Shown here: piece by piece, positions 4,601-21,062 of the stretch
Layout of the letters: each line of letters opens with the position of its first letter
Numbering within the stretch: the stretch's first letter is position 1
IMG/VR virus record: IMGVR_UViG_3300031702_000050
Coordinates: 1-23,322 of that record
Reading direction: 5' to 3' (one strand)
From: a virus
Length of the DNA: 23,322 bases
The notes under the pieces: model-generated
The model's database searches: none
The model's input: the letters and a program-made list of their open reading frames with translations, nothing else
Told to the model about the DNA's origin: nothing
Program-made: the position numbers and the translations under genes

Positions 4601-5141
4601 AAGTGACGAAGTAATTTATCATCCTGCAAAGTATAAAATCTTATTTGGCGATAAAGCTCCAGGTGATCTGCAAGTTAAGTTTAAGATTGTTAAAAATCCT
4701 AGTATGGTTATTAACGATAATGAACTTAAATCAGACATAATTGAAGCTATTAATAAGTTCTTTGATATTGAAAATTGGGACTTCGGAGAGACGTTTTACT
4801 TTCAAGAGCTTAGTGCCTATATTATAAATGGGCTGTCTCCTAAACTGGTAAGTATACTAATAGTACCGCGCCAAACTACACAATCGTTTGGTAGCCTATT
4901 TGAAATAAAAAGTGAGCCAGATGAAATATTTGCAAGTGCAGCTAAGGTGAGTGATATCGAAACAATTGATCAATTAACAGCAACTAATTTACAAGCTAGT
5001 GGAACAATAATTAATACTGTTGCGACTAGTATAACGTCAGGAATATCAAGCAGTGCATCGACACCTGCAACAACCACAACTGCAACAACTGCAACAACTA
5101 CAACAACTACACCATCAACAGGCGGAGGCTATAGTTACTAA
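1623..5141 (+). CDS. 6: gp6-type baseplate wedge protein, enlarged
   Basis: gp6 forms the dimeric wedge core that links neighbouring baseplate wedges into a ring and contacts gp25 and gp7. The protein shows the family's strongly conserved N-terminus (residues ~12-115: DWKRIYQSFRNADFQSYDF, YLALIDMIAFLGQNLSFRID, ENFLETAERRESVLRLARML). A baseplate-J-like core follows (FSDGVFGNLPAGNF near 342-355; an APATYYTQNRLITGEDY segment near 422-438). The C-terminal block has ETFYFQELSAYIINGL and IKSEPDEIFASAAKVSDI. It is 1172 residues against 660 in T4; the extra length sits mainly between the core and the C-terminal block (~residues 520-1010). That region contains an EF-hand-like loop DLDDDGVIDDPD at residues 815-826. 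The last ~50 residues are a Ser/Thr/Ala-rich tail. ATG at 1623 is preceded by AAGGA at 1611-1615 with 7-nt spacing. Its stop TAA overlaps the next ATG (TAATG). Assignment is secure; the role of the insertion is unknown. Confidence 0.93.
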   Translation: MSSNDRQSRLLVAEDWKRIYQSFRNADFQSYDFDNLRRTMINYLRQNYPEDFNDYIESSEYLALIDMIAFLGQNLSFRIDLNARENFLETAERRESVLRLARMLSYNPRRNQAANGLLKFDTIKTTENILDSNGLNMAGITVKWNDQTNSNYFEQFIKLLNSALPLSNSIGNPLKSALIADVQTQKYRLNATNTGQAIYPFTKRIEGVSTRFEVVSTDILGEDIIEEAPLPGNSPAFLFRDDGQGAGSNNTGFFMHFRQGKLEKGNFAVSNPTPNQAVAIDAENINDSDVWLFSLNSTGFESSEWTKIDSTEGNNVIYNSLFNKTRDVYAVTTRIGDRINLNFSDGVFGNLPAGNFNVYYRTSNNIRSVVTPSALSTISIDIPYQSRNGSAQTLTVGLKLNYTVSNGTAAETSTEIKQNAPATYYTQNRLITGEDYNIGPLAISQDIIKTKSSNRISSGISRFFDLKDASGKYSNTSLFADDGVIYKEEFTEKQSFTFATQTDIEGVIYNTIEDILKSTTSQNFYLAKYPKIIVSDLNATWLQSSNSTNQSLGLLQDVDFNPYTVGEFTANSLRLLEAGSMLKFVAPVGKHFMADGTLMTDGTGTDHLGKTSYKWCKVISVTGAGTVIDEDGISPIAVNEVIPSDAILQQVIPNFSKVLINDIKTQLIDQAFEYKDFALRYDQYDRQWKLVLAEDINTLNTFATGKAGDITGENLDASWMLYFKTDGEKYTITYRNLRYVMESAEEIRFFFDAADKIYDPATGQIVRDKIDILNINRKPGELTPFTRDFNWTITDAYRDTEGYLDSRKIQVQFIDLDDDGVIDDPDIFEQIVGEEDTTILTKDKLIFQKKYTTTDGVEDFKYFANTTAEIIVIQNEAAIVPYSTRLEGQIFYLIDEDIFRKLNKVLNNTIINTDYKAYFGRADLKFHYIHVADSGYRIDPSASNIIDTYILSKTYDTQVKQYISGTTLIQPKPPSNDELFRSYGTAINKIKSLSDEVIYHPAKYKILFGDKAPGDLQVKFKIVKNPSMVINDNELKSDIIEAINKFFDIENWDFGETFYFQELSAYIINGLSPKLVSILIVPRQTTQSFGSLFEIKSEPDEIFASAAKVSDIETIDQLTATNLQASGTIINTVATSITSGISSSASTPATTTTATTATTTTTTPSTGGGYSY
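5067..5120 (+). repeat. ACA/ACT trinucleotide-rich tract encoding Thr-rich tail of gp6
   Basis: This is an imperfect trinucleotide repeat (CAA CAA CCA CAA CTG... and ACA ACT type units) coding for a run of threonines with scattered alanines just before the gp6 stop. It is low-complexity DNA and protein. The tract lies immediately upstream of the start of the giant gene, so length changes in multiples of three would alter only the gp6 tail, while a slip by one or two bases would break the TAATG junction. Confidence 0.8.
5124..5128 (+). promoter_or_regulatory. ribosome binding site for the giant ORF, inside gp6
   Basis: GGAGG lies within the gp6 codons for Gly-Gly-Gly, 12 nt before the ATG at 5141. 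The spacing is longer than ideal, but the start codon shares its A with the gp6 TAA (TAATG), so termination-reinitiation probably contributes. This arrangement ties production of the giant protein to that of gp6. Confidence 0.6.
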
Positions 5142-8100
5142 TGGCTAAGAATGATCAGAACGAAAGCGCACTACCTGTTCCAGGACAGAATAATAAAATT
5201 ACTGCAAGTGATTTTTTACCAAAGTTCTTTAGAACACAAGCAAATAAAAAGTTCTTACAAGGAACACTTGACCAACTTATACAACCCGGCGTTGCTGAAA
5301 AAGTAAATGGTTATTACGGTAGAAAAACAGCCAAAGCATACAAAACTACAGACAATTATGTCGATGACATAAGTGCTAACCGAACTAACTATCAGTTAGA
5401 GCCTGCGACAGTTATCAAAGACAATTATGATAATGTAACTTTTTATAAAGATTATAATGATTACATAGGACAACTTAGTAACTATGGCGCCACTACAGAT
5501 AATCACAGTCGTTTAAACAGTCAAGAAACTTATGCGTGGAACCCAAATATCGACTGGGATAAGTTTGTAAACTTCCGAGAGTACTACTGGATGCCAAACG
5601 GTCCTATTAGTGTTCCTGTAAGAGGACAAAGCAGAGATATTGTTAGTACGTACACTGTTACTACAGAAGACCAAGGCGATAATATTGCTTATGTATTTAA
5701 TGATGGTCTCGTCCGAAACCCTAGCTTAAAAATATTCCGTGGCCAAACATATCGTTTTGTTATTGATGCTATAAACCATCCAATGGCAATTGCACTTAGT
5801 AGAACGTTTACTCCTGGAATAACAGTTGACACTAATGTTAGTACACTGTATAATGACGGTATAACTATCTATGATGAAGAGGGTAATATTACAACCAGTA
5901 GTTATATTGAAAAAGGCACAATTGAATTTACTGTTCCTTCCAATGCTCCTGATGTACTGTATTATATCAGTAAAAATTCTGTTGATACGAGTAACTTTAT
6001 TAAAGTTTACGATATTGAAGAAAATACATTCCTTAATGTCGCTGAAGAAATACTAGGTAAGAAAACTTACAAAAGTGCAAATGGTGTAGAATTATCCAAC
6101 GGAATGAAAATTAAATTTCAAGGTGATGTATTACCTGCTACGTATGACACCAATGATTGGTATGTAGAAGGTGTTGGTGAAAAAATTAAATTAATTAAAG
6201 ATCAAGATCTAATTATTCCAGCTGCATACAGCGAAATTAACCGCATAGCATTCGATGCTGATAACTTTGATACATTGCCTTTTAGTGACGCAACAGCATA
6301 TGCAACTAATAAAGATTATATTGTTGTTAACCGTGCAACTCCAGATAGAAATGCATGGAGTCGGTACAATAGATGGTACCACAAAGATGTAATTTTAAAA
6401 AGTTTTGAACTTAATAATTTAGCAGGAGATGTAGATGAAACTTCTCGTGCAAAACGTCCTATTATAGAATTTGAAGCAGGATTAAAGTTACACAATTTTG
6501 GCGCATATGCTAAAACTGACGTTGACTTAGTTGACACATTCACGACTGATGTGTTTAGTACTATTGAAGGTGAAATAGGATATAACATTGACGGTATTAA
6601 TCTTGCTGATAATATGCGTATTTTGTTTACAGCAGACACTGATACATTAGTGAACGGAAAAATATACCAAGTTAAATTTGTTAAAATTGGAAATAGCAGA
6701 CAAATTAGTTTAATTGAAACTACTGATACATTGCCTATTGATCTTGAAACAGTATTAATTACACAAGGCTTAATAAATGCAGGTAAGAGTTATCACTACC
6801 ATAATAATAAGTGGGCTACTGCACAAGAAAAGACAACACGTAATCAAGCTCCTACTTTTGAAGTATGCGACAAAAATGGTAACAGTTTCAGCAATGAAAC
6901 ATATTATGGTTCGACTACATTTAAAGGCACTAAGTTATTTTCATACAGTATCGGCGAAGGTATTGTAGATACTGAATTAGGATTTGCATTAGATTATAAG
7001 TCTATTAATAATTCAGGCGACATTGTTTTTGATTTTAATTTATTATCTGATACATTTACTTACCAGACAGATACTGATTTGTATACGCAGCATATTAAAA
7101 GCGGCTATTTAAAGAAATATAGTTCGCTTACTAAATTTAAGTATGTAAATGGATTTAGTGATATTCCTACTATTAGTAAGCAGTATGTTGTAAGAGAGTA
7201 TTCTGCAACTAGCACCCAGATTAATAATTTTATAATTGACGTTTACAATAAATCAAGTAGTATTATTGACTTAAAATTAGTTGTAATTGTAAACAATAAA
7301 TTACAATTAATTAATACTGATTACACAATTGATAAAACTAATAGTAATGCAGTTGTTATCTTTGTAAAAGACTTAGTAGCTACTGATGTTATTAAAATTA
7401 AGACAGATAGTAAAACTATTAAAAATTCCAATGGATATTACGAGTTTCCATATAACTTAGAACGTAATCCTTTAAACGATGATGTTAATCAATTTACATT
7501 AGGCGAAGTAGTTGACCATGTTGACAGTATGTTAGAAGACATTCCTAACTACACAGGTGCATTTCTTGGATCAAGTAACCTGCGTGATTTAGGTGATTTA
7601 GATCGCTACGGTAAACGCTTTGTTAAACATAGCGGCCCAATTAATTTGCCACTGTACCATGTAACTAATAAAGATTATAATATTGTAAAGGCATTAAAAT
7701 ATTCTAGAAAAGAGTATTCAAGATTTAAGAAAGTATTTTTAGACACTGCTGCTACATTAGGTTATGATGGTCCTATAAAAGGACACGTTGATCTTATATT
7801 AAAAACTGTTAATAGTGATAAATTAAAGTCGCAGCCTTTTTACTTCTCTGATATGCTTCCAGCTGGAGCAGCTAATAAACTAACATACACTATATTAGAT
7901 AAGAGAACAACAGAATATCCGATTACCGCCGACTTTAACTTAACAGAGTTAAGTGCAAAAAGTGTAACTGTTTATTTAAACGGCGTACAATTAACGCACA
8001 TTAAAGATTACAATTTTAATATTGCAGGGTATGTTTCAATTAATGCCGGACAGATAGAAACTGATTTAATTGAAATACACGAATACGATAGTACTGATGG

Positions 8101-11100
8101 TAGCTTCATTGCTCCTACTCCTAGTAAACTAGGATTGTTTCCTAAGTATTATCCTGAACTAACAATAGACGATACTGTGATTGCAGCAGAGCCAGAAACT
8201 ACTGGTCCGTTTAAGCTATACGGCGAAGATAGTGCAACTGGTACTAGAGGTTGGTTCTATCCTGTGTACACTACTAAGAGTGCAGCAGGCACCGGCGCAT
8301 TATCTAAGTCTTATACATTTGCAGGAATGAACAAACTGTTTTATATTCCTGCAACAGGTGCAACACTTGCTGGCATTGATGATATCGAAGTTATTGAATA
8401 CCCAGTCGGCGTCGCATTTATCAGAGGCCATGACGGTAGCTATATTAAAGCGTATAAAGACTTTAGAGATGAATTATTATTAGAATTAGAAAAGAGAATC
8501 TTTAATAACATTAAAGCAGAATATTCAACTGATAGATTAGACGTTAATACATTTGTTGGCGGAGAATTTAGAACGAATGAATTTACTAAAACTGAAATTG
8601 ACAATGCAATGCTTGGTGATTTTACGCAGTGGCTACAGCAAAACTTAAATAATCAAACTTACACGACTAATACGTTTTATAATAGAGAAAATAATTGGAC
8701 ATTTAACTACCAAGATACTACTTCGCCAGACGGTAACGTAAACTCGGGATACTGGAGAGGCATGTATGTTAGGGCATTTGATACTGATCGCCCGCATAGT
8801 CATCCTTGGGAAATGCTTGGTCTAACAACTAAGCCAAGTTGGTGGAATACAGTTTATGGTCCTGCACCTTATACAGGTGATAACTTAGTACTTTGGAGAG
8901 ACTTAGAAAAGGGACGCATTGCTGATCCTAAAAACACTAGGATTGATCTTAACTATGCACGTACTGGATTAACTAGTTTTATCCCAGTTAACAGCCTCGG
9001 CAAATTACTATCACCACTAGATAGCAGATATGCAAAAGACTTCCAAGTGCAAAATGCTACACAAAACTTTAAATTTGGAGATTATGCTCCTGTTGAAAAC
9101 GCATGGCGGAGAAGTTCTGAATATCCTTTTTCTGTACTAACAGCTATGCTATTAAACAAGCCTGCTAAAACAATGGGATTAGGGTTTGATGTTTCAAGAG
9201 TGTCTAAGAATTTAGCAAATCAGTGGGTAAACGTAGATACAAACGCACCTATTGTAATTAAGGATTTAACATTACCAAATACAGTTGAATCACTTGCACG
9301 AACTAACACAGCAGGATTAGTAAACTATATTTACAATCTTGTAGCAAGCGATATATTATCAGTTTACGATGGATACAAAACTAACCTTGCAGGAATTACT
9401 AATCAACTCGGTATTAAAATTGCAGGTTTTACAAGTAAGGAAAAGTTTAATTTAATACTTGATAGCAGGTCGCCGACACAGTCAATAACACAGGATGGTA
9501 TATTTGTCCCACAAGAAAACTACCAAGTATTTTTAAATACAAGTAGTCCTATTGAACTAGCAATATACAGTGGTATTATTGTAGAACGTGTTGAACTAGG
9601 GTATATAGTAAGAGGATACAACTCAGAAAAACCATACTTTGAATATTATCCTGCACTACATGGATCGTCTACAAGTACTGTAACAGTTGGCGGAATATCT
9701 GAAAAAGTAATTGAATGGGATAGTAGTACTGCTTACATCTCCGGCGAAATAATATTAAATAATAATGCATATTATAGAGTTGTTACTTCATTTACTAGTG
9801 ATAGAACATTTGACACTGATAATATAGTTAAGCTTCCTGCACTTCCTCTTACTGGTGGAAGAACAGCATCATTTAAGAAAAACTTTGATATCAATGCACT
9901 TACAAGAATTCAGTATGGTACACGACTTGACACAGTGCAAGAAGTTATTGACTTTATATTAGGTTATAATGTAAGACAAAAAGAAATTGGATTTAATTTT
10001 GAAAATGTTATTGCTGGAACTAACGAAGTTGAAAATTGGAATTACGCAGCAAAGCAGTTTTTATTCTGGACAACACAAGGATGGTCCGATAACTCGCTAA
10101 TTGCATTAAGTCCTGCTGCAAACTTATTAGAATTCCAAAAAGACTATGTTATAGTTGATAATATTAAAGACGAGTTTTATGGATATAGTCTACTTAAAGC
10201 AGACGGACTATTCTTAGATTCAGAGTTTACCAGTTTATTAAGAGACCAAAACAGCTTTGGTCTCGAAACAGTTGGTACTGATGAAGGTCTATATCATGTG
10301 TCTTTACCGTTAATACAAAAAGAACACGTTGTATTAATAGACAATATTACTGACTTTAACGACACAATTTATAATCCAAGTACAGGTTACAGACAAGAAC
10401 GAATCCGTGTAAATGGTTACAGATCAGATAACTGGAATGGCGGATTAAATATTCCGGGATTTGTTTATGACGATGCAAGCTTTACAGATTGGGCACAATG
10501 GAAAGATTACAAGATTGGTGATATTGTAAAGTACAAGCAGTATTACTATGTTGCAACAGTTAACGCAAATGGCACACAAAACTTTAATTCAGCTAACTGG
10601 TATAAGTTAAGCGAAAAACCTGAGTCACAGTTAATGACTAACTTTGATTACAAAATTACACAGTTTACAGACTTTTATGATTTAGATTCAGATAGCTTTG
10701 ATACTGAGCAGCAAAAAATGGCGCAGCATTTGATAGGTTATCAGAAGCGCCAATATCTTGCTAACATTATTAATGATGATGTAAGTCAGTTTAAATTCTA
10801 CAGAGGTGCAATTGCAGACAAAGGCACAATGAATGTGTTTACTAAATTGTTTGATGCATTGGGTAATACTGCCGACAATTTGGAATTCTACGAAGAATGG
10901 GCAATCCAAGTTGGCCGGTACGGCGCAATTGACGATGTGCAGCAAGTTGGATTTAATTTAATACAAAAAAATATCCAAGAGTCGCCCCAAGCAATTGAGC
11001 TTGTAACCACTCTGCCTGAAACTAACTATGATAAGATTTATAGAATTAAACCAAACAACGTATACGATCAGCCTGCAGGGTATACACACGCACCGTTTCC

Positions 11101-14100
11101 TACTAAATCACTAACTAATGAATTTATTAGAACCTCTGGGTATGCAAATGAAAATGATGTTGACTTTATTGTTGGCTCCTTGCAAGACCTTGCAGACGTT
11201 GATACTAATCAAATTAAATTAGGCGATACTATGTGGATAACTGACACGGACAATAAGAGTTGGTCAGTTATGCAACTAACACGAGGACTTGTAAATGCAA
11301 TTAGCATAGAAACTGATATTTCTAATTTTGCAGCCAACGGATTAAATTTAGTAGAAATAACACTAGATAAATGGGCAGTAAGTTTATTTACAGTTGGTGA
11401 CTATGTTAGTATCAGAGGAGCGCAACAGTATACTATTAACGGGTTATACGAAATTGATAATATTAATCTTAATAAGATACAACTAAGAGTTCCACTAAAC
11501 AGCGGCATCCAAGCTGTTACTATTGAAGATAATATAAGTTTTGCAATGTCATTACTAAGAACTATAAGAGTAAGTGATACAGCAGGCATTAATGCAGCAA
11601 CAAATCAGGATATATACGACAAACAGCGATTGTGGATTGACAATTATAAAGGCGATTGGGGTGTATTAGAAAATAATTCTGTATATTTAAATTCGCAAAC
11701 AATTACAAATCCGTCAGATTACGACAGCACGGATCAAGGGTTTAGTGACAGTGTTGCCGTAACCGAAAGTAATACTAATGTTTTTGTATCAGCACCAAAT
11801 GACTTAAACGGAAAAGTTTCAGTATACCGTAGAACACAAGAACAGTCTAATTTAATACTAGATCAAGAAATTATACTAGTCAATGATGACCTTTTTGTTA
11901 GTACAAATTCTGCCTTTGGCAAAAGTGTAGCAGTATCGCCAGACGGTGAATATCTTATTGTAGGTATTCCGAAAGCTAGTAATGTTAAAACTAATCTATC
12001 TTATAAAACAGATGCAAGTACAGGAGCATCTACGTTTGACTTTCAACCAGATGCATCGTATGTTAAGAATAATATTGTACGGTATCGAGAAAGTTTATGG
12101 TCAGCAAATAGAGAAGTGTTACCGCAGATTGCAAATCAGCCATTTAGTACATTTGACACATATGTTAATTTAGCATCCGCAGCAGATGCTGATAGTACAA
12201 CATTAAATCTTTTAGTTGCAGGTGATCCGGGATTAGCAACTAACACAACAAGTCACATGTTAGTGCGGGCACCAAAAGATATGTATATTGGAACAACAGC
12301 CGGTGACACAATTAACTTATTTTGGAACCAGCGTAGTTTTACATTCCCAACATTAGATAACTATATTCCGTTTGAAGGGCTTATTCCAGAAATTACTGGA
12401 GCATTTTTAAGTCAAGATCATACTATTGTTGAAAAAATTGATCATGTAATGTTTGTTGAAACTTTTGTATCATTACCGGTTGTAGGATCTATAGTAACAA
12501 CTGATACAGGTAGTGCAGAAGTAGCATATGTAGGCAAGCGCCTAGACAGTGCAGTTGTTTATGTTAAAAACACAAATGGTGTTTTTAATGTTACTGGCGA
12601 AATGTTTATTAATGAATTAGACTTTGTAGGATTTTATTCAGAAGCAGACACATATGCTACAAGTGCAGTACTAGGCGGCTTCTGGATGATTAATACAGGA
12701 TTTACTTATTCAAACAATAGTGTGTATTATGAACAAGGCCGAGGCTTAGTGTATGCTGATGTTAAACTACAAGGCTCAGTAAGAGCTATTAATAACTATT
12801 ATAATATTCAAAACACAGTCGGCACAATTGGTACATATGTTACTAACAAAAATAATGTAAGCTATATTGAACAATTGTCATATCGAGGTGATCCGTCAGG
12901 CGCTGATGCACAAGACGGTGTTGAGAGAGATTTACTGAGTAATAAATGGGTAGCTAGAGTAGGCAAGACATTTAGTGATTATTTAACAATTGGTGAAACA
13001 CAAGAGTTCCGTTTATACAATCTTGACAACAGAATTATTGATGTTGCAAGTGCAGGATTTACATATGATATTCTAAACAAAGCACAAACTGTTGCTGATA
13101 TATGGGACGGATACATTGACTTTACGTTAACAGAATTTGACTTCCAAGGCTTTGGATACGAGCCTCAAGTAGGCGACACAATTTCGGATGTACAAACACC
13201 CCGTGATGGCACAGGTGGCCTTGCATTAACAACAATTACTACAAGTACTGCTGAAGTTATGTTTATAAAACGTAATTTTAATAGTATTAGAGTTTATGTA
13301 AAAGTCTTAACTGGCGAGTGGACAGAACAATCGAACATTGGACGCTATCAAGTTTACAGAGAAGCAAATGTTGGATTACGCGGTGCCACTGATATTGGCC
13401 GCACAATTGGCACAATAACTGACATTAATAATAGTATAGTAGTAGGTAATACATTAGTTGGCAAATTAGTAGTGTTCGAACATAACAATAACTTTAATAT
13501 TGTTACTACACCGACTATTGTTGATGAAGAATATTGGTTCTTTGATGAAACTACAGAAGAAGGTGTCCAGCGTTTACCAAATCCTCCATATACCTTAAAC
13601 AAAGATTACACACAAGTATATAATATTCTTGCAGAGAAAACAGGTACAAGTCCTGTACTAGCAAATGAAGGTGCAGTTGCTATATATAGAAGACTGCGAG
13701 ATGGTACTTATAGATTACAGCATACATTAGTGTCAGAATATAGAGTATCAAACAGACACTTTGGTGACAATGTTGCAATAGTACAAACTGGAAATTATTA
13801 TACTTTATTAGTTGCTAGTAATAGTGTTGCAAGTGCAAATGAAACAGATAGTACAGGTAGGCGTGTACACCCTGGCGCAATTGAAATATTCCGTCATGGT
13901 ACACTAGCAACTGATAGTTTTAAAGGCGAATACAAACTAAGTGCATATGTGATTGATGATGTTGTAATATATAAAGACGATTATTATATTTGCCTTAAAG
14001 CAACAACAGCAATACAAAATGTTATACTTGATCCAATTTACTGGAATAAAATTAGTTGGAAGCACGGCAAGGATTCAAACTATCGCGGAACATTTGATAA

Positions 14101-17100
14101 TACTTACACTTATAAAACGGGTAATATTGTTGTAGTAAGTAATACATTATGGAAAGCAGCAACTAATGTAGCAACAGGTGCAGCAACACCAAGTTCGTCA
14201 AATAACTCTTGGACAAGTATTAGTACTAATGTTGATTATTTAGGCTACTTGCCAAATCTAACTGCAAATGCATTTTATAATGAAACTGTATTTGATCCTA
14301 TCGAAAACATACTAGAATTTAGTAAGAGCTTTGATATTAGTAATGATGCACAAGTGTTAGTAGTAACAAGTAATCAACAAGAAGTAGAAAATGATAGCAC
14401 AGTAAGAACAAAGCTTGTGATTTATCGTGCAGTAGGAGATAAATTCCAAGTAGATCAAGTAATAACTGCTCCTAATGATATTACCGGCTGGGCTGACAAA
14501 GTTGCACTAAATCCTAAAGGCACACAGCTTGCAATTAGTTCAATGTTAAACGATACAAGTAAAGCTAACCAAGGTGTTGTAGATGTTTACACACAAACTA
14601 ATGGCACATTTACTTTAACACAAACACTAACACCTCCACAAAATGAAGAAAGTGAAGGCTTCGGCTTTGGACTAGACTTTGGCATAGATAACTTAGTAGT
14701 ATCGAGTTTAAATGGCGACCAAGTAATACCAACTACATTTGATGTTACGGTATATTCTGTAACTGAAGATACTGCAACAACGTTTGACAACGAGTTTACA
14801 AATTTTGCAAACGTAAAACTTGACAAAGGTGTTGTTTATGTATACGAAACAGTTAACAACAGTTTAATATATTCAGAGCAATTTGTTTATCCGTTAACAC
14901 AAACTACCTTCGGCGAAAACATTTATGCCAACGGCAATCACGTTTATATTGGTATGCCAGATCAACTTATAGATTCAACAGGCGGCACCGACGCGAATGA
15001 CACAGCTGGAAACAAAGGGCAATTGCTTGACTTTAGAAAAAATAAAAATACATTTGCATGGAACATAATTAGCGAAGGCATTACTCCAGTAGACGTAGAT
15101 AACATTCAAGGAATGTTTTTATACAACAAGCGTGAGAATACTATTGTAAGTTATATTGATTATATTGATCCAGTACAAGGTAAAATAGCTGGCCCAGCAG
15201 ATCAAGAAATTACATTTAAAACTCCGTTTGATCCTGCTGTATACAATACAGGTAATCTTTTAGATAACTCAGTTGACCCTAACAGGGCATGGTGCGAGAC
15301 ACACGTTGGACAAGTATGGTGGAATATTAGTACTGCTAAATTTACTCATGCATATCAAGGTTCAACTACATTCCAAAAAAATAACTGGAATAAATTAACT
15401 CCTAATGCGAGAATTGATATATTTGAATGGGTAGCAAGTAACTTTATTCCTAGTGTTTGGGATAGTATAGCAGATACTCCTTCCGGCATTGAAGCGAAAA
15501 TTAGTGGCACGAGTTTATTTGGCGATACTAAATATTCTACTAAAATAATATATAACGAAGTTAGTAAAACATTTAGTAATGTATATTACTTTTGGGTAGT
15601 TAACAAAGTTACAGTTCCTGTTATGGAACACAGAAAATTAAGCATCAGTGATATTACATCACTTATTGAGAATCCAAGACTACAAGGATATCCTTTTGTA
15701 AGTTTGCTTTCTGATAGCAAGTTTGTAATCAATAATTTTGATACGTTCCTCGATAATGACGATTTAGTATTGAACATTAAGTATTCAACAGGACCCAAGA
15801 AGACACAAAATACACACAGTCAATACAAACTAATATCAGATGGGTTAAACACAAGTAAGCCTGATGCAGATATTGAACGCAAGTGGTTTGACAGCTTAAT
15901 TGGCTTTGATAGTAATGACAGAATTGTTCCAGATCCAACTATATCTGTTAAAAATCGTTATGGTGTACAAAACCGCCCAAGACAAAGTATGTTTGTTAAT
16001 CGATTTGAAGCACTAAAGCAGACTATTGAAAGAATAAATCTAAAGTTAGCTGAAAGTCTAGCAGTTGACCAATTTGATATTACTAAGTTAGCACAAAAAG
16101 ATATTGCTCCGACTGTAATATCTAGAGAATATGACCTAGTAACAGACACGTTATCTGAACTTACTTTTGTAAGCACAAATAAGATTACTCCGGCTACACT
16201 AACACCTGTAATTACTAACGGCAGAATATCTAGAATTAATATTACTAATTCTGGCAGAGGATACAAAGTAGTTCCTACTTTTAAAATTAGCAGCAGCTCC
16301 GGACAAGACGCTAATTTTAATGTTACTATTAATAACTTAGGACAGGTTATTTCTGCTACTATTACTAATCAAGGTAGCGGATACGATGCAACTACAAGTA
16401 TTACTGTTAGACCATTTACAGTACTAGTTAGTGCTGACGAAAGTGTGCAAGATAAATGGGCATTATATTCGTGGAACGGAACTGTTTGGTTTAGAAGAAA
16501 ACTACAAAGTTATAATACAGAATTGTATTGGAATTATGTTGACTGGTACGCACGTGGATATAATCAGTTTACACATATTAATGACACAATTATTGGTTCT
16601 TACCAGTTGCCTTCATTAGAAAATAACCTTGGCGACATTGTAAAAATTGAAAATGTAGGATCAGGAGGTTGGCTACTATTAAGAAAAGTAGATGACCAAG
16701 ATACCGAAGACTACACAATTAATTATGATACTATTGGCCGAAAGAATGGAACTTTACAATTTAAGGATACGTTGTACGATTACAGTAAGAATACTGTAGG
16801 ATTTGACAACCGTAGCTTTGATAGTAATTTTTATGATAATAACCCAAGCGTAGAATTAAGAATTATACTCGGAGCTATTAGGGATAATATTTTTGTAGGC
16901 GAGTTAGAAGTTGAATATAATAATTTGTTTATGGCTGCGTTACGTTATGTAATGTCAGAACAGCAATCAGTTGATTGGATGTTTAAAACAAGTTTTGTCA
17001 AAGCAAAGCACAACAGAGAAACATTAAACCAAAAAGACATTACATTTAACAATGATAATCTTGCAAGCTATCAAAACTTTGTTGAAGAATTTAAACCTTA

Positions 17101-20100
17101 TTCAACAAAGATAAGAGAATTTGTTAGCGAATACAATGCAATAGATCCTACGAACAGTAGTGTTAGTGATTTTGATTTACCACCAGTATACAATAGCATT
17201 ACTAAAACAATTGATCCGAGTAGAGCAATTATTTTAGACGGCACAATTAAAAGAGCAAACTTAGACACTACTAGTTACCCTAGAAAAAACTGGAATGATA
17301 ATCACGGTTATCAAATAACTGGAATTAAACTAGGCAATGGCGGCAGTGGATTTACTTATGAACCTGTTGTTACTTTAGTTGGCGGCAACGGAACAGGCGC
17401 AACAGCAAAGGCATATTTAGGTTATGGAAAAATTACTAGTATTAAAGTAACAAATCCAGGATCTGGATACACAAGCGCACCGACAGTTGTTATATCGGGA
17501 TCACAAACAGACATAGGAACTGTTGCTAACGCAACTGCTATTTTAGGTAACGGATTAGTAAGAAGTCCAAGTATCAAAATTAAGTTTGACAGAACTAGCG
17601 GAAAAGTTACATTTAGTACACTTGCAAAAATTGAAACCTTTACTGGAACAGGATTTGAAAATAGATTCTTCTTAGAATGGCCAATGAATCTAGATACTAA
17701 GAAAGTTAATGTATATGTGGATAATATTTTACAATTGCGTAGCAAGTATACATTTACAAATATTGAAAATACTGACAAAACTTATATTAGGAATCAAGGC
17801 AAGGTGTTATTTACAACTCCTCCGAAAGTAAATACAGTTGTGCGTGTTGAATACAACATTCCTTTAAGCATGTTAAGTGCAGAAGATAGAATAACACATG
17901 CATACAATCCAGTGGCAGGCATGTATGGCACTGATTTTGCACAATTAATGACAGGCACAGATTATGGCGGAGTTGAAGTACGCAGTTTTGACTTTGATGG
18001 CCCTGCTGGTTTTGACACAGCCGGCTGGTATACTGATAATTGGGATGAATTTGATAATACTTTTGAAGATGAAGTATTTACAGCAGACGGATCTACAATT
18101 GCAGTACAATTAAGTGCTCCATTAGCAGATGGAGTTGTTTATAATCTTTATAAAAACGGCGTAAGAATTGACGATCCTAACTTTGATTTAGGAACTGCAA
18201 CTAATGTAAATGCTATTACAAACAGTATTACAGGCGATGGCATAACTGACATAGTATATGTACAAGACTTAGAAATAACTCTATTAGACAACGATATATT
18301 CGTTGTAAGAAAAACCTCAAGTGATGGTAGTGTTATTCCTGATACTAACAGTTATGATACTGCACTAAGTGGCGGCAACTTATCTTACACATCAGCACGT
18401 GGTATTGCAGCAGAAGAAATTATTGTAGACGGCGACGGTTTTGTTACACCTACTACTTCAGGAGGCCCTGAGGAAATTGTACCTGGACAGATTCTAGACA
18501 CATTAGATATCAAGGTATTTACAAGAGACAGTAAAGGCCAGGGTATTATTAACAGTCAAAGTTATATAATGCAAGCTAACAGCAATCTAACTTACAGATT
18601 AGGAGTTACTCCAAATAGTAAAGATGCTGTAATTGTAAAAGTTGCTAATAATATATTACCACAAACTGATTATACAATTAATTGGGCTGCAGGCGAAGTA
18701 ACACTTAATACAGTAACAGTAGGAGCAGAACTTAGTATTGTAACAGTTGCGCAAGGTACACAGAATATACTAGACTTTGGACAGCTAATTGGTGATGGTT
18801 CCGCTACTGATTTTGAAACTACAGTTGATTGGGAAACTAACGTAACTGTTTACGCAAGCATTAACGGAGTACAACAAACAGTTATAGCGTTTAAATCAGA
18901 AACTGGTCCTAAGACAACTATCAGATTTGATGAAGTTGTTGCAGTAGGTGATGTAATTAATTATACTGTGTTCTCAGCAAATACACAAATTAACTATAGT
19001 CAAATTACTAAAGATACGTTTACTGGCGATGCAGCAACAACGGTATTTACACTAGCAAATGCACCACTGTATGCTATACCAACAGAACATAATGTAATTG
19101 TTAAAGTAAATAATACTATTTTAAGTGCAGGATACAATATACAGTATACGATTCCTGCAAACAGTCAAAGAGAATTTCCACTAGAAATATTCCAGATGCC
19201 AGCAGGTAGTTTAGATGTTTCTGATGTTAAGATATTCTTAAATGGCATTGCAATTACGACTCCGCTACAATGGCGTTTTGAAATTGCAAACAGCGCCATT
19301 ACACTAGCAGACGAAGTCGGAGCACCTGGCGACTTACTAGAAATGTATGTGATAACAGACGGTGCATATAGGTTAAATGGAACTGCAATAACATTAGATG
19401 CAGCACCAGCAGCTGGAGCAGTAATTGAAGTAATTCAATTTACTAACCACAACTTGCTAGGCCTTGAGCGTATGACTTATGATGTAGTTAACAGAGCTAC
19501 GCTACTTGAAACAGATGTTGATTATGTTACGTACAATAGATTAACAGTTGGTGAAATTACGTTACGTAAGCCTGCAATTGATGCAGAATATGTTTGGGTA
19601 AGTGTAAACGGCGAACTGTTAACACCTAGTGTAGACTATGCTATAACTAGTGACAGGCTAAAAGTTCAATTAGTAAGAACACCAGCAGCTGATGATATTA
19701 TAGACGTTATTCACTTTACTTCTGCAGCAAGTACAGCTAAATTTGCATATAGACAGTTTAAAGATATGTTGAATAGGACACATTTTAAGCGTCTTGATAA
19801 AGCAGCTACTAAACTAGCACAACCATTAAATTATTACGATTTAAGAGTTGAGTTAACCGATGCAAGCCAGTTGTCAGATCCAAACAAGGGACAAAATTTA
19901 CCTGGTGTAATCTTTATTGATGGCGAGCGCATTGAGTACTTTGTAAAAGAAAGTAATACACTGCGCCAACTACGTAGAGGGACATTAGGTACTGGAGTTA
20001 AGAATACTTACACATTAGATACTAAGGTATACGATCAGAACATAAGTAAAACTATACCTTATAAAGATCAAACCTTGGCCCATAACGCTACAGCAGACGG

Positions 20101-20437
20101 CGCTACAAGCGAGTTTACAGTTAGTTACCCTGTTGCATCAATTAATGAGATTGAAGTGTTTGTGGCAGGCACACGTATGCGTAAGACTACGTTAGATGTG
20201 TTTAATCCTGTAACTGCACTAGATAGTCCAGAAGGGGATACTACAATTGTAGCAGACTTTACGTTTGATACAGAAACTAACGTAATTACATTACTTGCAA
20301 CTCCTGCAAAAGATACAAGAGTAACAATTGTGAAAAAAGTGGGCCAAAGTTGGACAACTTTCGGAGAATCATTGGGTGATACAGAAAATAGTATTGCAAG
20401 ATTCTTACGTGCAGGAACATCTGAGCTACCTGAATAA
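5141..20437 (+). CDS. giant multi-module baseplate/tail structural protein (gp7 position)
   Basis: One uninterrupted 5098-residue frame, about five times the length of T4 gp7 (1032 aa). No enzyme signature, signal peptide or membrane segment is evident; it is beta-rich and rich in Asn, Thr, Asp and Tyr, as in phage structural proteins. Order: conserved N-terminus (residues ~22-155, with FLPKFFRTQANKKFLQ, NYQLEPATVIKD, NPNIDWDKFVNFREYYW); degenerate cupredoxin-like domain (~183-292); a block around 1212-1380 with SHPWEMLGLTTKPSWW and WRRSSEYPF; CBM5/12-like modules at ~1524, 1784, 2301, 2927 and 2981; a helical block FYRGAIADKGTMNVFTKLF (1886 on) recalling the KG...LF motif in baseplate wedge proteins; FG-GAP-like propeller segments between ~2199 and 3300; two pairs of GxGY repeats (3682-3759 and 4056-4139); beta-sandwich-like repeats (4164-4861); GERIEYF/RRGTLGT module (~4868-4978). 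The start overlaps the gp6 stop. Position after gp6 suggests a gp7 counterpart or a gp7-fibre fusion; identity to gp7 is inference. Similar large proteins are, from memory, common in marine T4-like phages. Confidence 0.85.
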   Translation: MAKNDQNESALPVPGQNNKITASDFLPKFFRTQANKKFLQGTLDQLIQPGVAEKVNGYYGRKTAKAYKTTDNYVDDISANRTNYQLEPATVIKDNYDNVTFYKDYNDYIGQLSNYGATTDNHSRLNSQETYAWNPNIDWDKFVNFREYYWMPNGPISVPVRGQSRDIVSTYTVTTEDQGDNIAYVFNDGLVRNPSLKIFRGQTYRFVIDAINHPMAIALSRTFTPGITVDTNVSTLYNDGITIYDEEGNITTSSYIEKGTIEFTVPSNAPDVLYYISKNSVDTSNFIKVYDIEENTFLNVAEEILGKKTYKSANGVELSNGMKIKFQGDVLPATYDTNDWYVEGVGEKIKLIKDQDLIIPAAYSEINRIAFDADNFDTLPFSDATAYATNKDYIVVNRATPDRNAWSRYNRWYHKDVILKSFELNNLAGDVDETSRAKRPIIEFEAGLKLHNFGAYAKTDVDLVDTFTTDVFSTIEGEIGYNIDGINLADNMRILFTADTDTLVNGKIYQVKFVKIGNSRQISLIETTDTLPIDLETVLITQGLINAGKSYHYHNNKWATAQEKTTRNQAPTFEVCDKNGNSFSNETYYGSTTFKGTKLFSYSIGEGIVDTELGFALDYKSINNSGDIVFDFNLLSDTFTYQTDTDLYTQHIKSGYLKKYSSLTKFKYVNGFSDIPTISKQYVVREYSATSTQINNFIIDVYNKSSSIIDLKLVVIVNNKLQLINTDYTIDKTNSNAVVIFVKDLVATDVIKIKTDSKTIKNSNGYYEFPYNLERNPLNDDVNQFTLGEVVDHVDSMLEDIPNYTGAFLGSSNLRDLGDLDRYGKRFVKHSGPINLPLYHVTNKDYNIVKALKYSRKEYSRFKKVFLDTAATLGYDGPIKGHVDLILKTVNSDKLKSQPFYFSDMLPAGAANKLTYTILDKRTTEYPITADFNLTELSAKSVTVYLNGVQLTHIKDYNFNIAGYVSINAGQIETDLIEIHEYDSTDGSFIAPTPSKLGLFPKYYPELTIDDTVIAAEPETTGPFKLYGEDSATGTRGWFYPVYTTKSAAGTGALSKSYTFAGMNKLFYIPATGATLAGIDDIEVIEYPVGVAFIRGHDGSYIKAYKDFRDELLLELEKRIFNNIKAEYSTDRLDVNTFVGGEFRTNEFTKTEIDNAMLGDFTQWLQQNLNNQTYTTNTFYNRENNWTFNYQDTTSPDGNVNSGYWRGMYVRAFDTDRPHSHPWEMLGLTTKPSWWNTVYGPAPYTGDNLVLWRDLEKGRIADPKNTRIDLNYARTGLTSFIPVNSLGKLLSPLDSRYAKDFQVQNATQNFKFGDYAPVENAWRRSSEYPFSVLTAMLLNKPAKTMGLGFDVSRVSKNLANQWVNVDTNAPIVIKDLTLPNTVESLARTNTAGLVNYIYNLVASDILSVYDGYKTNLAGITNQLGIKIAGFTSKEKFNLILDSRSPTQSITQDGIFVPQENYQVFLNTSSPIELAIYSGIIVERVELGYIVRGYNSEKPYFEYYPALHGSSTSTVTVGGISEKVIEWDSSTAYISGEIILNNNAYYRVVTSFTSDRTFDTDNIVKLPALPLTGGRTASFKKNFDINALTRIQYGTRLDTVQEVIDFILGYNVRQKEIGFNFENVIAGTNEVENWNYAAKQFLFWTTQGWSDNSLIALSPAANLLEFQKDYVIVDNIKDEFYGYSLLKADGLFLDSEFTSLLRDQNSFGLETVGTDEGLYHVSLPLIQKEHVVLIDNITDFNDTIYNPSTGYRQERIRVNGYRSDNWNGGLNIPGFVYDDASFTDWAQWKDYKIGDIVKYKQYYYVATVNANGTQNFNSANWYKLSEKPESQLMTNFDYKITQFTDFYDLDSDSFDTEQQKMAQHLIGYQKRQYLANIINDDVSQFKFYRGAIADKGTMNVFTKLFDALGNTADNLEFYEEWAIQVGRYGAIDDVQQVGFNLIQKNIQESPQAIELVTTLPETNYDKIYRIKPNNVYDQPAGYTHAPFPTKSLTNEFIRTSGYANENDVDFIVGSLQDLADVDTNQIKLGDTMWITDTDNKSWSVMQLTRGLVNAISIETDISNFAANGLNLVEITLDKWAVSLFTVGDYVSIRGAQQYTINGLYEIDNINLNKIQLRVPLNSGIQAVTIEDNISFAMSLLRTIRVSDTAGINAATNQDIYDKQRLWIDNYKGDWGVLENNSVYLNSQTITNPSDYDSTDQGFSDSVAVTESNTNVFVSAPNDLNGKVSVYRRTQEQSNLILDQEIILVNDDLFVSTNSAFGKSVAVSPDGEYLIVGIPKASNVKTNLSYKTDASTGASTFDFQPDASYVKNNIVRYRESLWSANREVLPQIANQPFSTFDTYVNLASAADADSTTLNLLVAGDPGLATNTTSHMLVRAPKDMYIGTTAGDTINLFWNQRSFTFPTLDNYIPFEGLIPEITGAFLSQDHTIVEKIDHVMFVETFVSLPVVGSIVTTDTGSAEVAYVGKRLDSAVVYVKNTNGVFNVTGEMFINELDFVGFYSEADTYATSAVLGGFWMINTGFTYSNNSVYYEQGRGLVYADVKLQGSVRAINNYYNIQNTVGTIGTYVTNKNNVSYIEQLSYRGDPSGADAQDGVERDLLSNKWVARVGKTFSDYLTIGETQEFRLYNLDNRIIDVASAGFTYDILNKAQTVADIWDGYIDFTLTEFDFQGFGYEPQVGDTISDVQTPRDGTGGLALTTITTSTAEVMFIKRNFNSIRVYVKVLTGEWTEQSNIGRYQVYREANVGLRGATDIGRTIGTITDINNSIVVGNTLVGKLVVFEHNNNFNIVTTPTIVDEEYWFFDETTEEGVQRLPNPPYTLNKDYTQVYNILAEKTGTSPVLANEGAVAIYRRLRDGTYRLQHTLVSEYRVSNRHFGDNVAIVQTGNYYTLLVASNSVASANETDSTGRRVHPGAIEIFRHGTLATDSFKGEYKLSAYVIDDVVIYKDDYYICLKATTAIQNVILDPIYWNKISWKHGKDSNYRGTFDNTYTYKTGNIVVVSNTLWKAATNVATGAATPSSSNNSWTSISTNVDYLGYLPNLTANAFYNETVFDPIENILEFSKSFDISNDAQVLVVTSNQQEVENDSTVRTKLVIYRAVGDKFQVDQVITAPNDITGWADKVALNPKGTQLAISSMLNDTSKANQGVVDVYTQTNGTFTLTQTLTPPQNEESEGFGFGLDFGIDNLVVSSLNGDQVIPTTFDVTVYSVTEDTATTFDNEFTNFANVKLDKGVVYVYETVNNSLIYSEQFVYPLTQTTFGENIYANGNHVYIGMPDQLIDSTGGTDANDTAGNKGQLLDFRKNKNTFAWNIISEGITPVDVDNIQGMFLYNKRENTIVSYIDYIDPVQGKIAGPADQEITFKTPFDPAVYNTGNLLDNSVDPNRAWCETHVGQVWWNISTAKFTHAYQGSTTFQKNNWNKLTPNARIDIFEWVASNFIPSVWDSIADTPSGIEAKISGTSLFGDTKYSTKIIYNEVSKTFSNVYYFWVVNKVTVPVMEHRKLSISDITSLIENPRLQGYPFVSLLSDSKFVINNFDTFLDNDDLVLNIKYSTGPKKTQNTHSQYKLISDGLNTSKPDADIERKWFDSLIGFDSNDRIVPDPTISVKNRYGVQNRPRQSMFVNRFEALKQTIERINLKLAESLAVDQFDITKLAQKDIAPTVISREYDLVTDTLSELTFVSTNKITPATLTPVITNGRISRINITNSGRGYKVVPTFKISSSSGQDANFNVTINNLGQVISATITNQGSGYDATTSITVRPFTVLVSADESVQDKWALYSWNGTVWFRRKLQSYNTELYWNYVDWYARGYNQFTHINDTIIGSYQLPSLENNLGDIVKIENVGSGGWLLLRKVDDQDTEDYTINYDTIGRKNGTLQFKDTLYDYSKNTVGFDNRSFDSNFYDNNPSVELRIILGAIRDNIFVGELEVEYNNLFMAALRYVMSEQQSVDWMFKTSFVKAKHNRETLNQKDITFNNDNLASYQNFVEEFKPYSTKIREFVSEYNAIDPTNSSVSDFDLPPVYNSITKTIDPSRAIILDGTIKRANLDTTSYPRKNWNDNHGYQITGIKLGNGGSGFTYEPVVTLVGGNGTGATAKAYLGYGKITSIKVTNPGSGYTSAPTVVISGSQTDIGTVANATAILGNGLVRSPSIKIKFDRTSGKVTFSTLAKIETFTGTGFENRFFLEWPMNLDTKKVNVYVDNILQLRSKYTFTNIENTDKTYIRNQGKVLFTTPPKVNTVVRVEYNIPLSMLSAEDRITHAYNPVAGMYGTDFAQLMTGTDYGGVEVRSFDFDGPAGFDTAGWYTDNWDEFDNTFEDEVFTADGSTIAVQLSAPLADGVVYNLYKNGVRIDDPNFDLGTATNVNAITNSITGDGITDIVYVQDLEITLLDNDIFVVRKTSSDGSVIPDTNSYDTALSGGNLSYTSARGIAAEEIIVDGDGFVTPTTSGGPEEIVPGQILDTLDIKVFTRDSKGQGIINSQSYIMQANSNLTYRLGVTPNSKDAVIVKVANNILPQTDYTINWAAGEVTLNTVTVGAELSIVTVAQGTQNILDFGQLIGDGSATDFETTVDWETNVTVYASINGVQQTVIAFKSETGPKTTIRFDEVVAVGDVINYTVFSANTQINYSQITKDTFTGDAATTVFTLANAPLYAIPTEHNVIVKVNNTILSAGYNIQYTIPANSQREFPLEIFQMPAGSLDVSDVKIFLNGIAITTPLQWRFEIANSAITLADEVGAPGDLLEMYVITDGAYRLNGTAITLDAAPAAGAVIEVIQFTNHNLLGLERMTYDVVNRATLLETDVDYVTYNRLTVGEITLRKPAIDAEYVWVSVNGELLTPSVDYAITSDRLKVQLVRTPAADDIIDVIHFTSAASTAKFAYRQFKDMLNRTHFKRLDKAATKLAQPLNYYDLRVELTDASQLSDPNKGQNLPGVIFIDGERIEYFVKESNTLRQLRRGTLGTGVKNTYTLDTKVYDQNISKTIPYKDQTLAHNATADGATSEFTVSYPVASINEIEVFVAGTRMRKTTLDVFNPVTALDSPEGDTTIVADFTFDTETNVITLLATPAKDTRVTIVKKVGQSWTTFGESLGDTENSIARFLRAGTSELPE
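5687..6016 (+). other. cupredoxin-like module within the giant protein, metal ligands apparently lost
   Basis: Residues ~183-292 read as the small beta-barrel module frequent in marine phage structural proteins: NPSLKIFRGQTYRFVIDA, then an NHP turn, YNDGI, GTIEFTVPSNAP and DVLYYISKN. In the metal-binding form the last strand normally ends in a Cys-x-x-His-like stretch (YYIC.NH); here it is YYISKNSVDTS, with neither Cys nor His. The His of the NHP turn remains. The fold call is pattern-based and moderate. Confidence 0.55.
9712..9834 (+). other. CBM5/12-like aromatic module 1 in the giant protein
   Basis: Residues ~1524-1565 follow the pattern W-D-x(2)-x-A-Y-x-x-G-(E/D)-x-I/V...Y-Y-R-V, typical of small chitin-binding-type (CBM5/12-like) modules: EWDSSTAYISGEIILNNNAY then YRVVTS. 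This is the first of five similar segments. Sugar binding is inference. Confidence 0.45.
10490..10622 (+). other. CBM5/12-like aromatic module 2 in the giant protein
   Basis: Residues 1784-1828: WAQWKDYKIGDIVKYKQYYY, then VATVNANG and a closing NWYKL. Of the set this is the closest to the W...Y..GDIV.Y...YY.A.......W consensus of CBM5/12-type modules. Confidence 0.55.
12041..12166 (+). other. CBM5/12-like aromatic module 3 in the giant protein
   Basis: Residues 2301-2342: FQPDASYVKNNIVRYRESLW, with the Y..NNIV.Y...W pattern matching the other modules, placed directly after the second propeller-like blade. The closing Trp of the consensus is absent, so this is the weakest member with module 1. 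Confidence 0.4.
12478..12615 (+). repeat. internal AEV...VYVK repeat, copy 1
   Basis: Within the giant protein, VGSIVTTDTGSAEVAYVGKR, then D-S-A-V-V-Y-V-K and a G-x-F turn. The same arrangement (VGDTI..., TAEVMFIKRNFNSIRVYVKV, G-E-W) recurs about 690 nt downstream, so this is a diverged internal duplication. Function unknown. Confidence 0.5.
13169..13360 (+). repeat. internal AEV...VYVK repeat, copy 2
   Basis: Second copy of the module described at 12478. It is longer because of an insertion between the VGD turn and the TAEV strand. Both copies lie within the inserts that interrupt the propeller-like region. Confidence 0.5.
13919..14059 (+). other. CBM5/12-like aromatic module 4 in the giant protein
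   Basis: Residues 2927-2973: FKGEYKLSAYVIDDVVIYKD, then DYYICLKATT and a closing YWNKISW. It has the full Y...DVV.Y...YY.......W layout and is followed within about ten residues by module 5, forming a tandem. Confidence 0.5.
14081..14221 (+). other. CBM5/12-like aromatic module 5 in the giant protein
   Basis: Residues 2981-3027: YRGTFDNTYTYKTGNIVVVS, then NTLWKAATN and a closing SWTSI. It follows the Y..G.IV......W.A.......W layout and is the second half of a tandem with module 4. Confidence 0.5.
16184..16418 (+). repeat. GxGY beta-repeat pair 1 in the giant protein
   Basis: Residues 3682-3759 hold two units of the form (I/V)xxIxITNxGxGYxxxPTFxI: RISRINITNSGRGYKVVPTF and QVISATITNQGSGYDATTSI. 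These short beta-repeats recur at 17306. Such units are, from memory, common in large marine phage structural proteins and probably form a stacked beta structure. Confidence 0.65.
17306..17557 (+). repeat. GxGY beta-repeat pair 2 in the giant protein
   Basis: Residues 4056-4139 hold two further units: GIKLGNGGSGFTYEPVVTLV and ITSIKVTNPGSGYTSAPTVV, joined by a G/A-rich ATAKAYL connector. A second connector (ANATAIL) follows. They match pair 1 in motif and spacing, 370 residues further on, with a helix-containing block between them. Confidence 0.65.
17630..19723 (+). repeat. run of beta-sandwich-like repeats near the C-terminus of the giant protein
   Basis: Residues 4164-4861 contain about six or seven diverged modules of roughly 80-110 residues. 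They share a (F)TGDGxTTxFxL opening strand, a VxVNGxxLTxxxDY hairpin and a PxxGDxIxVxxF closing strand. Examples are IETFTGTGFENRFFLEW, DEVFTADGSTIAVQLS, LIGDGSATDFETTVDW, DTFTGDAATTVFTLANAP and VWVSVNGELLTPSVDYAI. This pattern is typical of stacked domains in long fibre-like phage proteins. One more related module closes the protein (TADGATSEFTVSYPVA, near residue 4990). Exact unit boundaries cannot be set by eye. Confidence 0.55.
19742..20074 (+). other. conserved GERIEYF/RRGTLGT module of the giant protein
   Basis: Residues ~4868-4978: an RTHFKRLDKAATKLAQPL helix-like start, then PGVIFIDGERIEYFVKE, LRQLRRGTLGT and ISKTIPYKDQT. Unlike the surrounding diverged repeats this stretch looks strongly constrained, and I recall near-identical motifs at the C-termini of other marine T4-like phage structural proteins. 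Function unknown; an attachment or joining interface is a guess. Confidence 0.5.
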
Positions 20438-20459: not shown

Positions 20460-21062
20460 ATGAGCGATAACATGCAGGACACAAACGGAGTACTAGTTCA
20501 GGGACATATTAAGATATTTGACCCTGAATCACAAAAGGTATACATTGACAAGCGCAATGCAATCCATTATGAGAATATGAGTATTGCACTAGCAGATAGT
20601 TTAGCAAACGCTGGAGCAGGATTTATATATGAAATGAGCTTTGGAAACGGCGGAACAAGCGTCGATCCAACTGGTATTATTACATATTTAACACCTAATA
20701 GCACAGGAACTAATGCAAGTCTATACAATCAAACCTATACTAAGGTTGTTGACGACAGAAGTGTAAACAACACTGATCCTGCAAGAAACAAACTAGAAAC
20801 TAGACATGTTAGTGGAACAAACTATACTGATATTGTAGTAAGTTGTTTATTAGATTACGGTGAACCAAATGGACAAGATGCATTTGATACTGCAAGTGCA
20901 ACAGACAGTGCGTATGTATTTGATGAATTAGGATTACGTAGCTATAGTGCAGCCGGAACAGGCAGACTGATTACACATGTTATTTTCCACCCAGTTCAAA
21001 AGTCACTTAACAGATTAATCCAAATTGATTACACAGTGCGTGTACAAAGTTTGGCAGGGTAA
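20460..21062 (+). CDS. probable virion structural protein, 200 aa
   Basis: The protein opens with a conserved-looking GHIKIFDPESQKVYIDKRNA segment, then AIHYENMSIALADSLA (a helix) and YEMSFGNGGTSVDPTGIITY, followed by a beta-rich half ending LNRLIQIDYTVRVQSL. I do not recognise a named domain, but I recall similar KRNAIHxENM...EMxFGNGGTSVDPTG proteins beside the baseplate and fibre genes of marine T4-like phages. No signal peptide, membrane segment or enzyme motif is visible. ATG at 20460 is preceded by AGGA (20447-20450) with 9-nt spacing, 22 nt after the previous stop; the next gene's RBS overlaps this gene's stop. Placement between the giant wedge/tail protein and the fibres suggests a baseplate-peripheral or fibre-attachment protein. 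That role is inference. Confidence 0.75.
   Translation: MSDNMQDTNGVLVQGHIKIFDPESQKVYIDKRNAIHYENMSIALADSLANAGAGFIYEMSFGNGGTSVDPTGIITYLTPNSTGTNASLYNQTYTKVVDDRSVNNTDPARNKLETRHVSGTNYTDIVVSCLLDYGEPNGQDAFDTASATDSAYVFDELGLRSYSAAGTGRLITHVIFHPVQKSLNRLIQIDYTVRVQSLAG

Follow-up and report, generated by a model that had tools for sequence, protein, structure and literature searches.

A giant protein matching PHROG 10938 in the gp7 position of a T4-like baseplate gene cluster

The window, 23,322 bases long, is the entire IMG/VR record and carries six genes, all on the + strand (Table 1). The IMG/VR contigs of this set are presumably marine, judged by their sample numbers. The largest gene encodes a giant protein (predicted 569.5 kDa, three cysteines) that starts with ATG directly after the gp6-like gene, the gp6 stop and the giant ATG overlapping by 1 nt (TAATG), an arrangement that makes translational coupling of the two plausible. 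An earlier note on this DNA had described a single 5098-residue ORF right after gp6, in the gp7 position of a T4-like baseplate cluster; both points were borne out, with the frame uninterrupted from 5141 to 20437 and a spike-lysozyme fragment, gp25, and gp6 lying upstream. The further suggestion that the giant replaces fibre genes finds no support, as a collar-domain fibre gene is present just downstream. A stop-free run of 5098 codons would arise by chance with P ~10^-179 at the base composition of the window, no frame stayed open for more than 162 codons in 50 shuffled versions of the window, and GC per codon position in the ORF is 0.444/0.374/0.223. The ORF is a genuine, intact, and conserved single frame, and no assembly accident. 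Bases 5141-13000 had no DNA similarity to phage records, and a self-BLAST of the protein found no off-diagonal pair at E up to 1 that would indicate internal repeats. One scan of genome contigs for a host gave 15 pattern matches with no relative among them, and therefore no host is claimed.

Table 1. Genes of the window and features of the giant protein (residue numbers refer to the giant)
Feature	Coordinates	Strand	Basis or remark
Spike/lysozyme-like protein, 5' end outside the window	1..1107	+	PF21277, E 1e-23
gp25-like wedge protein	1124..1558	+	PF04965, E 1.7e-6
gp6-like baseplate wedge protein, 1172 aa	1623..5141	+	phrog_10646, E 3.2e-293; phrog_219, E 4.6e-26
Giant virion protein by family match (PHROG 10938), 5098 aa, gp7 position	5141..20437	+	
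N-terminal domain, residues 1-165	5141..5635	+	322/339 core-bearing ORFs; predicted model
Cupredoxin fold (predicted), residues 166-294	5636..6022	+	2dv6_A, Z 10.3, rmsd 2.2 over 96 residues
Conserved core, residues 1172-2020, PxxxPWEMLG ... FYxGxIxxKGT	8654..11200	+	
CBM5/12-like module 1, residues 1522-1568	9704..9844	+	3wx7_A, Z 7.1 over 45 residues
CBM5/12-like module 2, residues 1779-1826	10475..10618	+	8fqc_Q1, Z 7.5, rmsd 1.6 over 45
KGT segment, residues 1885-1926, candidate gp7 FYxxKG counterpart	10793..10918	+	Profile match; pLDDT blocks 34-57
FG-GAP_2 repeat, residues 2254-2281, propeller region	11900..11983	+	E 9e-5, at curated cutoff
GxGY module, residues 3690-3760	16208..16420	+	Inspection and profile
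GxGY module, residues 4058-4113	17312..17479	+	Inspection and profile; inside phrog_460 best stretch
200-aa protein, phrog_11259	20460..21062	+	
Collar-domain tail fibre protein	21073..23127	+	PF07484, E 1.1e-13

The mosaic of modules proposed for the giant was recovered, comprising a cupredoxin, CBM-like modules (by fold, at modest Z), a propeller region (FG-GAP_2), and GxGY modules (by inspection and profile). The model of residues 1-1179 is good (105 sequences, mean pLDDT 87.0, pTM 0.76) and clearly predicts a cupredoxin fold downstream of the N-terminal domain. Compared with a His-Cys-His-Met ligand set as a sequence pattern, the window cupredoxin is without the Cys, the second His, and the Met, whereas the full copper-ligand pattern persists in a minority of relatives, namely in 13 (10 distinct) of the 326 ORFs with the N-terminal domain. 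Loci L253, L261, L281, L321, and L355 are flagged for a cupredoxin in a baseplate-cluster protein. The conserved core was modelled moderately (57 sequences, pLDDT 80.6, pTM 0.53). Its CBM5/12-like modules resemble chitin-binding modules and chains of the Milano baseplate, to which the entry 8fqc_Q1 belongs, and of the 7-7-1 tail fibre, with modest Z of 7-7.5; a PF02839 match at module 1 (E 0.0056) lies below the cutoff. FG-GAP_2 repeats were found in six of the eight members scanned, within residues 2090-3480 (best E 1.1e-13), and the GxGY modules (near 3705-3745 and 4068-4107) occur as well in the proteins that P-SSM2 and HTVC008M carry at the gp7 position. The assignments of the CBM5/12-like, FG-GAP, and GxGY modules are supported. 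The giant also matches phrog_460 ('Hc2'), with the best stretch at residues 4053-4124; this stretch falls on a GxGY module, for which reason a head role drawn from that match was rejected. A sequence search of solved structures returned nothing for residues 1-4981, gp6, or the profiles A5 and A6, and one weak match each for profiles A7 (a CD8 chain, E 0.17) and A8 (a tailspike, E 0.021).

A HMMER search of PHROGs matched the giant to phrog_10938 (E 1.8e-234 and 1.6e-71), and by this profile evidence it belongs to the giant virion proteins of jumbo phages, a family that PHROGs places in the category 'head and packaging'. Residues 1-2999 matched 57 phage records by tblastn, and of the 50 records listed, which match at 24-29% identity, 48 are 284-490 kb long. 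The cultured counterparts, with lengths taken from coordinates, include those of Phosso (4555 aa), Atu_ph07 (4449 aa), PA5oct (3857 aa), SCTP-2 (3807 aa), CBB (3340 aa), and 121Q (3323 aa). Homology to the PHROG 10938 members (121Q gp582, CBB_236, PA5oct gp355, and those of Atu_ph07 and Phosso) lies at the N-terminal region and the core; gp6 directly precedes the giant in Atu_ph07, Phosso, PA5oct, 121Q, and CBB, and PHROG 10938 phages share this position as well as, judged by size, neighbouring genes for a protein of about 200 aa and for a fibre-sized one. The window giant is the longer protein, at 5098 aa against 3323-4555 aa for the cultured members. In BFVD, the fold of residues 1-1179 matches the Atu_ph07 structural protein (E 7.6e-67, TMq 0.62), and the N-terminal tile as a whole matches jumbo-phage proteins.

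That the giants of relatives are part of the virion comes from the work of others. CBB_236 is described as found in virions by mass spectrometry, with 21 peptides and 7.72% coverage (PMC5259590), and phAPEC6 gp245 as a virion protein of 381.88 kDa with 17 peptides, encoded next to the baseplate wedge gene gp244 (PMC7247149). ORF 58 of AP-J-162 is given as a 4455-aa 'structural protein' most like that of Atu_ph07, adjoining ORFs 56 and 57, which are labelled 'baseplate wedge' (PMC11242549). Both phAPEC6 gp245 and AP-J-162 ORF 58 are taken here as family counterparts by size and position. The PA5oct giant record carries the note 'ESI-MS/MS'; virion proteomics has also been reported for Atu_ph07, the giant not being named in the accessible part of that paper (PMC6102473). 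The jumbo-phage records examined label the giants only as 'structural' or 'hypothetical' proteins, and none was presented as gp7 in the accessible text of the literature searched, a search that lay mostly outside subscription journals. A giant in the gp7 slot is nevertheless already on record, because of these jumbo counterparts and the gp7 of P-SSM2, annotated with 5195 aa; its size, which the earlier note had found surprising, is normal for both, and the window giant is a real, intact, and conserved protein of an already recorded kind.

Among close IMG/VR relatives, 28 loci with ORFs over 2500 aa considered, 14 have a complete ORF (13 distinct) of 4940-5196 aa. These 14 are not all independent, because L088 and L089, like L090 over its first half, differ little or not at all from the window. 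A wider set, which includes five cultured phages as well as overlapping contigs, holds 44 complete core-bearing ORFs (32 distinct) of 2613-5207 codons from stop to stop, and constant length is therefore a property of the close clade only. NG86 estimates of dN/dS against L097, L103, and L106 are about 0.09-0.24 in all eight segments of the giant, with dS of 0.62-0.90, 0.74-1.32, and 1.32-1.87, respectively, so that the values against L106 are near saturation. The giant is under purifying selection over its whole length. Up to residue 2446 the L090 sequence does not differ from that of the window; beyond it, L090 shows 98-100% identity to L095, with the switch at about 2446-2600; this reflects either intragenic recombination or chimeric assembly, and the sample of L090 also contains a window-like second half, L107.

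The N-terminal domain is also stable among relatives, the 17 of the 339 core-bearing ORFs outside the count in Table 1 all being cut short by the 5' edge of their locus. The 5' end is closed in 324 of the ORFs that carry the N-terminal domain; 16 of these have less than 1.5 kb upstream, leaving 308 testable for gp6, and in 306 of them a gp6 homologue ends no more than 400 nt upstream (202/204 when counted by distinct N-terminal sequence). Taken from the first in-frame ATG, 184 of these 306 show a 1-nt overlap with the gp6 stop. Downstream of the giant, a phrog_11259 homologue is present in 27 of 32 testable ORFs. The two exceptions to gp6 adjacency are Salicola phage SCTP-2 and L210. In SCTP-2 (L083 4609-13899), a second giant gene of 3096 aa lies directly upstream of the giant, and the gp6 homologue is ~92 kb away.

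The question of whether the giant is a gp7 counterpart was approached through profile comparisons. As background, gp7, gp10, and gp12 of T4-like phages are described as so divergent that they form up to nine clusters, according to Sullivan and others (PMC3037559). The FYxxKG segment connects known gp7 proteins, the P-SSM2-type gp7 matching the T4 gp7 profile there at E 6.7e-8 and the HTVC008M family matching the T4 gp7 family at E 0.004. Residues 1885-1926 of the giant match this segment of cyanophage gp7 at E 0.013 with the whole family (reversed decoy 0.57) and at E 0.0018 with the tile only (reversed decoy 0.47), and no other part of the giant scores better against the first 300 residues of cyanophage gp7. 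The probability that hhalign itself assigns to the match is low, 3 to 24%. In 100 column shuffles the tile score rose no higher than 21.6, against 32.2 observed, and with three cyanophage profiles the observed score was reached in 0/100, 0/60, and 0/60 shuffles. The similarity of the KGT segment to cyanophage gp7 is weak but site-specific. When P-SSM2 gp7 and the giant are compared whole against whole, the best match is a GxGY module and not the KGT segment; phrog_2885 is absent from the PHROG matches listed for the giant, and likeness to the giant cyanophage gp7 is confined to local GxGY and KGT matches.

Direct homology to T4 gp7 is unsupported by each of the sequence methods used. No gp7 family is among the HMMER matches listed for the giant in PHROGs, hhalign against a seven-member T4 gp7 alignment gave nothing above noise for the whole family or for tiles, and 11 of 40 column shuffles reach the observed score against T4 gp7 itself. 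For the N-terminal tile (residues 1-175), what hhalign matched to the gp7 of cyanophages or T4 was likewise dismissed as noise. In the records of 12 relatives, comprising six complete jumbo genomes and six large contigs, the T4 gp7 profile found nothing; this absence is weak because the same profile, which detects T4 gp7 and, in P-SSM2 gp7, the KG segment (E 1.6e-4), misses HTVC008M and S-PM2. A T4-type gp8 profile found 0/12 in the same records, its controls RB49 and S-PM2 being found. A cyanophage-gp7 profile, which finds T4, P-SSM2, and HTVC008M, all three being members of that profile, matched only G003 and G005 among relatives, at positions 34-107 and missing the KG segment. The matched regions of these two large contigs (G003 33909-34094, - strand; G005 46017-46238, - strand) lie in other long ORFs, of 2346 and 2026 aa, that share the module at cyanophage gp7 positions 34-107. 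In Pelagibacter phage HTVC008M (L125 14146-24906), four further genes are annotated 'baseplate wedge initiator', and the N-terminus of P-SSM2 gp7 matches 739 places in 461 phage records; the P-SSM2 gp7 N-terminal/HTVC008M module may recur within genomes.

Fold searches with residues 1-1179 and with the core returned no gp7 chain among the 50 matches listed per search, which proves little because the core list is full of CBM-like modules and the 1-1179 list of cupredoxins; the KGT segment itself is modelled at low confidence. The core list does contain baseplate chains at low Z, 7b5h_AE (Z 4.7) and 9euj_G of phi812 (Z 4.6). Covariation between residues 1-175 and 1172-2020 was computed from 157 sequences (~126 effective). 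Several of the top N-terminal pairs by mutual information lie at 1885-1907; of 300 pairs, however, 55 fall at 1222-1271 versus 46 at 1872-1921, and direct coupling is spread evenly. With more pairs in the 1222 bin and even coupling, covariation was dropped as support for a contact linking the N-terminal domain to the KGT segment. Of the idea of a gp7 counterpart, the gene position is upheld and homology to T4 gp7 finds no support, HMMER, hhalign, and the listed fold matches all being without T4 gp7. It had been held that the idea would fall if no tile resembled gp7 and a separate gp7 gene lay elsewhere in the genome; no gp7 chain is among the listed fold matches, and a separate gp7 gene was found in 0/12 records, a weak absence, so that the second half of this combination was not observed.

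Family membership, gene position, conservation, and part of the domain content are established here, and against this background the giant is probably a virion protein of a contractile phage of the jumbo type, encoded next to gp6 and forming part of the baseplate wedge with a gp7-like role. It would sit in the wedge beside gp6, where the N-terminal domain and the KGT segment would take over the function of gp7, gripping gp6 and connecting the wedge with the outer baseplate. The long stretch between them, together with the C-terminal half, would form an outward arm or shell of cupredoxin, CBM5/12-like, FG-GAP propeller, GxGY, and beta-sandwich modules, which would support fibres and may touch the cell surface. 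We infer the baseplate location, the contact with gp6, the gp7-like role, and the copy number of the giant. It is not filed as gp7, because the evidence makes a gp7-like role plausible without establishing homology to T4 gp7.

A rather unlikely alternative is that the giant is a peripheral baseplate or tail appendage, such as a fibre network or receptor-binding scaffold, that merely occupies the gp7 slot, the function of gp7 being absent or falling to a different, unrecognised protein. Its CBM5/12-like modules are of an adhesion type, known also from the Milano baseplate and 7-7-1 tail fibre chains, significant direct gp7 homology was not found, and the giant stands apart from gp6 in SCTP-2 and L210; the adjacency to gp6 in 306/308 testable ORFs, the presence of the N-terminal domain wherever the locus includes the 5' end, and the KGT match to cyanophage gp7 nevertheless count against it. 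It is improbable that the giant is a true T4 gp7 orthologue with inserted modules, too diverged for the tools used. Such an origin would agree with the gp25-gp6-giant order, the KGT segment, and the slot shared with P-SSM2 gp7, in which the T4 gp7 profile does find the KG segment, but that profile matches nothing in the six complete genomes and six large contigs, and the length and remaining domains are unlike T4 gp7. Size alone would suggest that no single working protein exists, through an assembly artefact or a polyprotein cut in pieces, which is very improbable given 14 complete close relatives of similar length, purifying selection throughout, and counterparts reported in virions.

Within the favoured reading of a wedge protein with a gp7-like role, a bolder version can be offered tentatively, in which the gp7 signature is split. 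Residues ~27-63 and the KGT segment would together form the gp6-binding core, with ~1,800 residues separating them and ~3,200 following; a single chain would then serve as gp7, perhaps also as gp8, and form the outer baseplate, and the jumbo giants, cyanophage gp7, and T4 gp7 would be one lineage grown by insertion. The N-terminal half of this proposal rests on inspection only, because the match of the 1-175 tile is noise.

A comparable layout is seen for P-SSM2 gp7 (PHROG 2885), where the gp25-gp6-giant order recurs and the protein, of about the same length, has GxGY modules as well as a KG-type segment, although this segment lies at residue ~205 rather than 1886 and no homology was found along the length. 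T4 gp7 (PHROG 964, 1032 aa) also follows gp6 and possibly has the FYxxKG segment in common with the giant through the cyanophage bridge, but no significant direct match links them and the giant is five times longer. In T4, gp8 follows gp7, whereas the gp8 profile found none in the 12 records of relatives. Proteins of 3,300-5,200 residues stand at the position of gp7 in cyanophage P-SSM2 as well as in jumbo phages, and the gp7-position idea deserves a structural test. If these giants are gp7 equivalents, they would make a well-defined cryo-EM target in cultured phages and would illustrate how a single modular chain can serve a baseplate for what takes several genes in T4.
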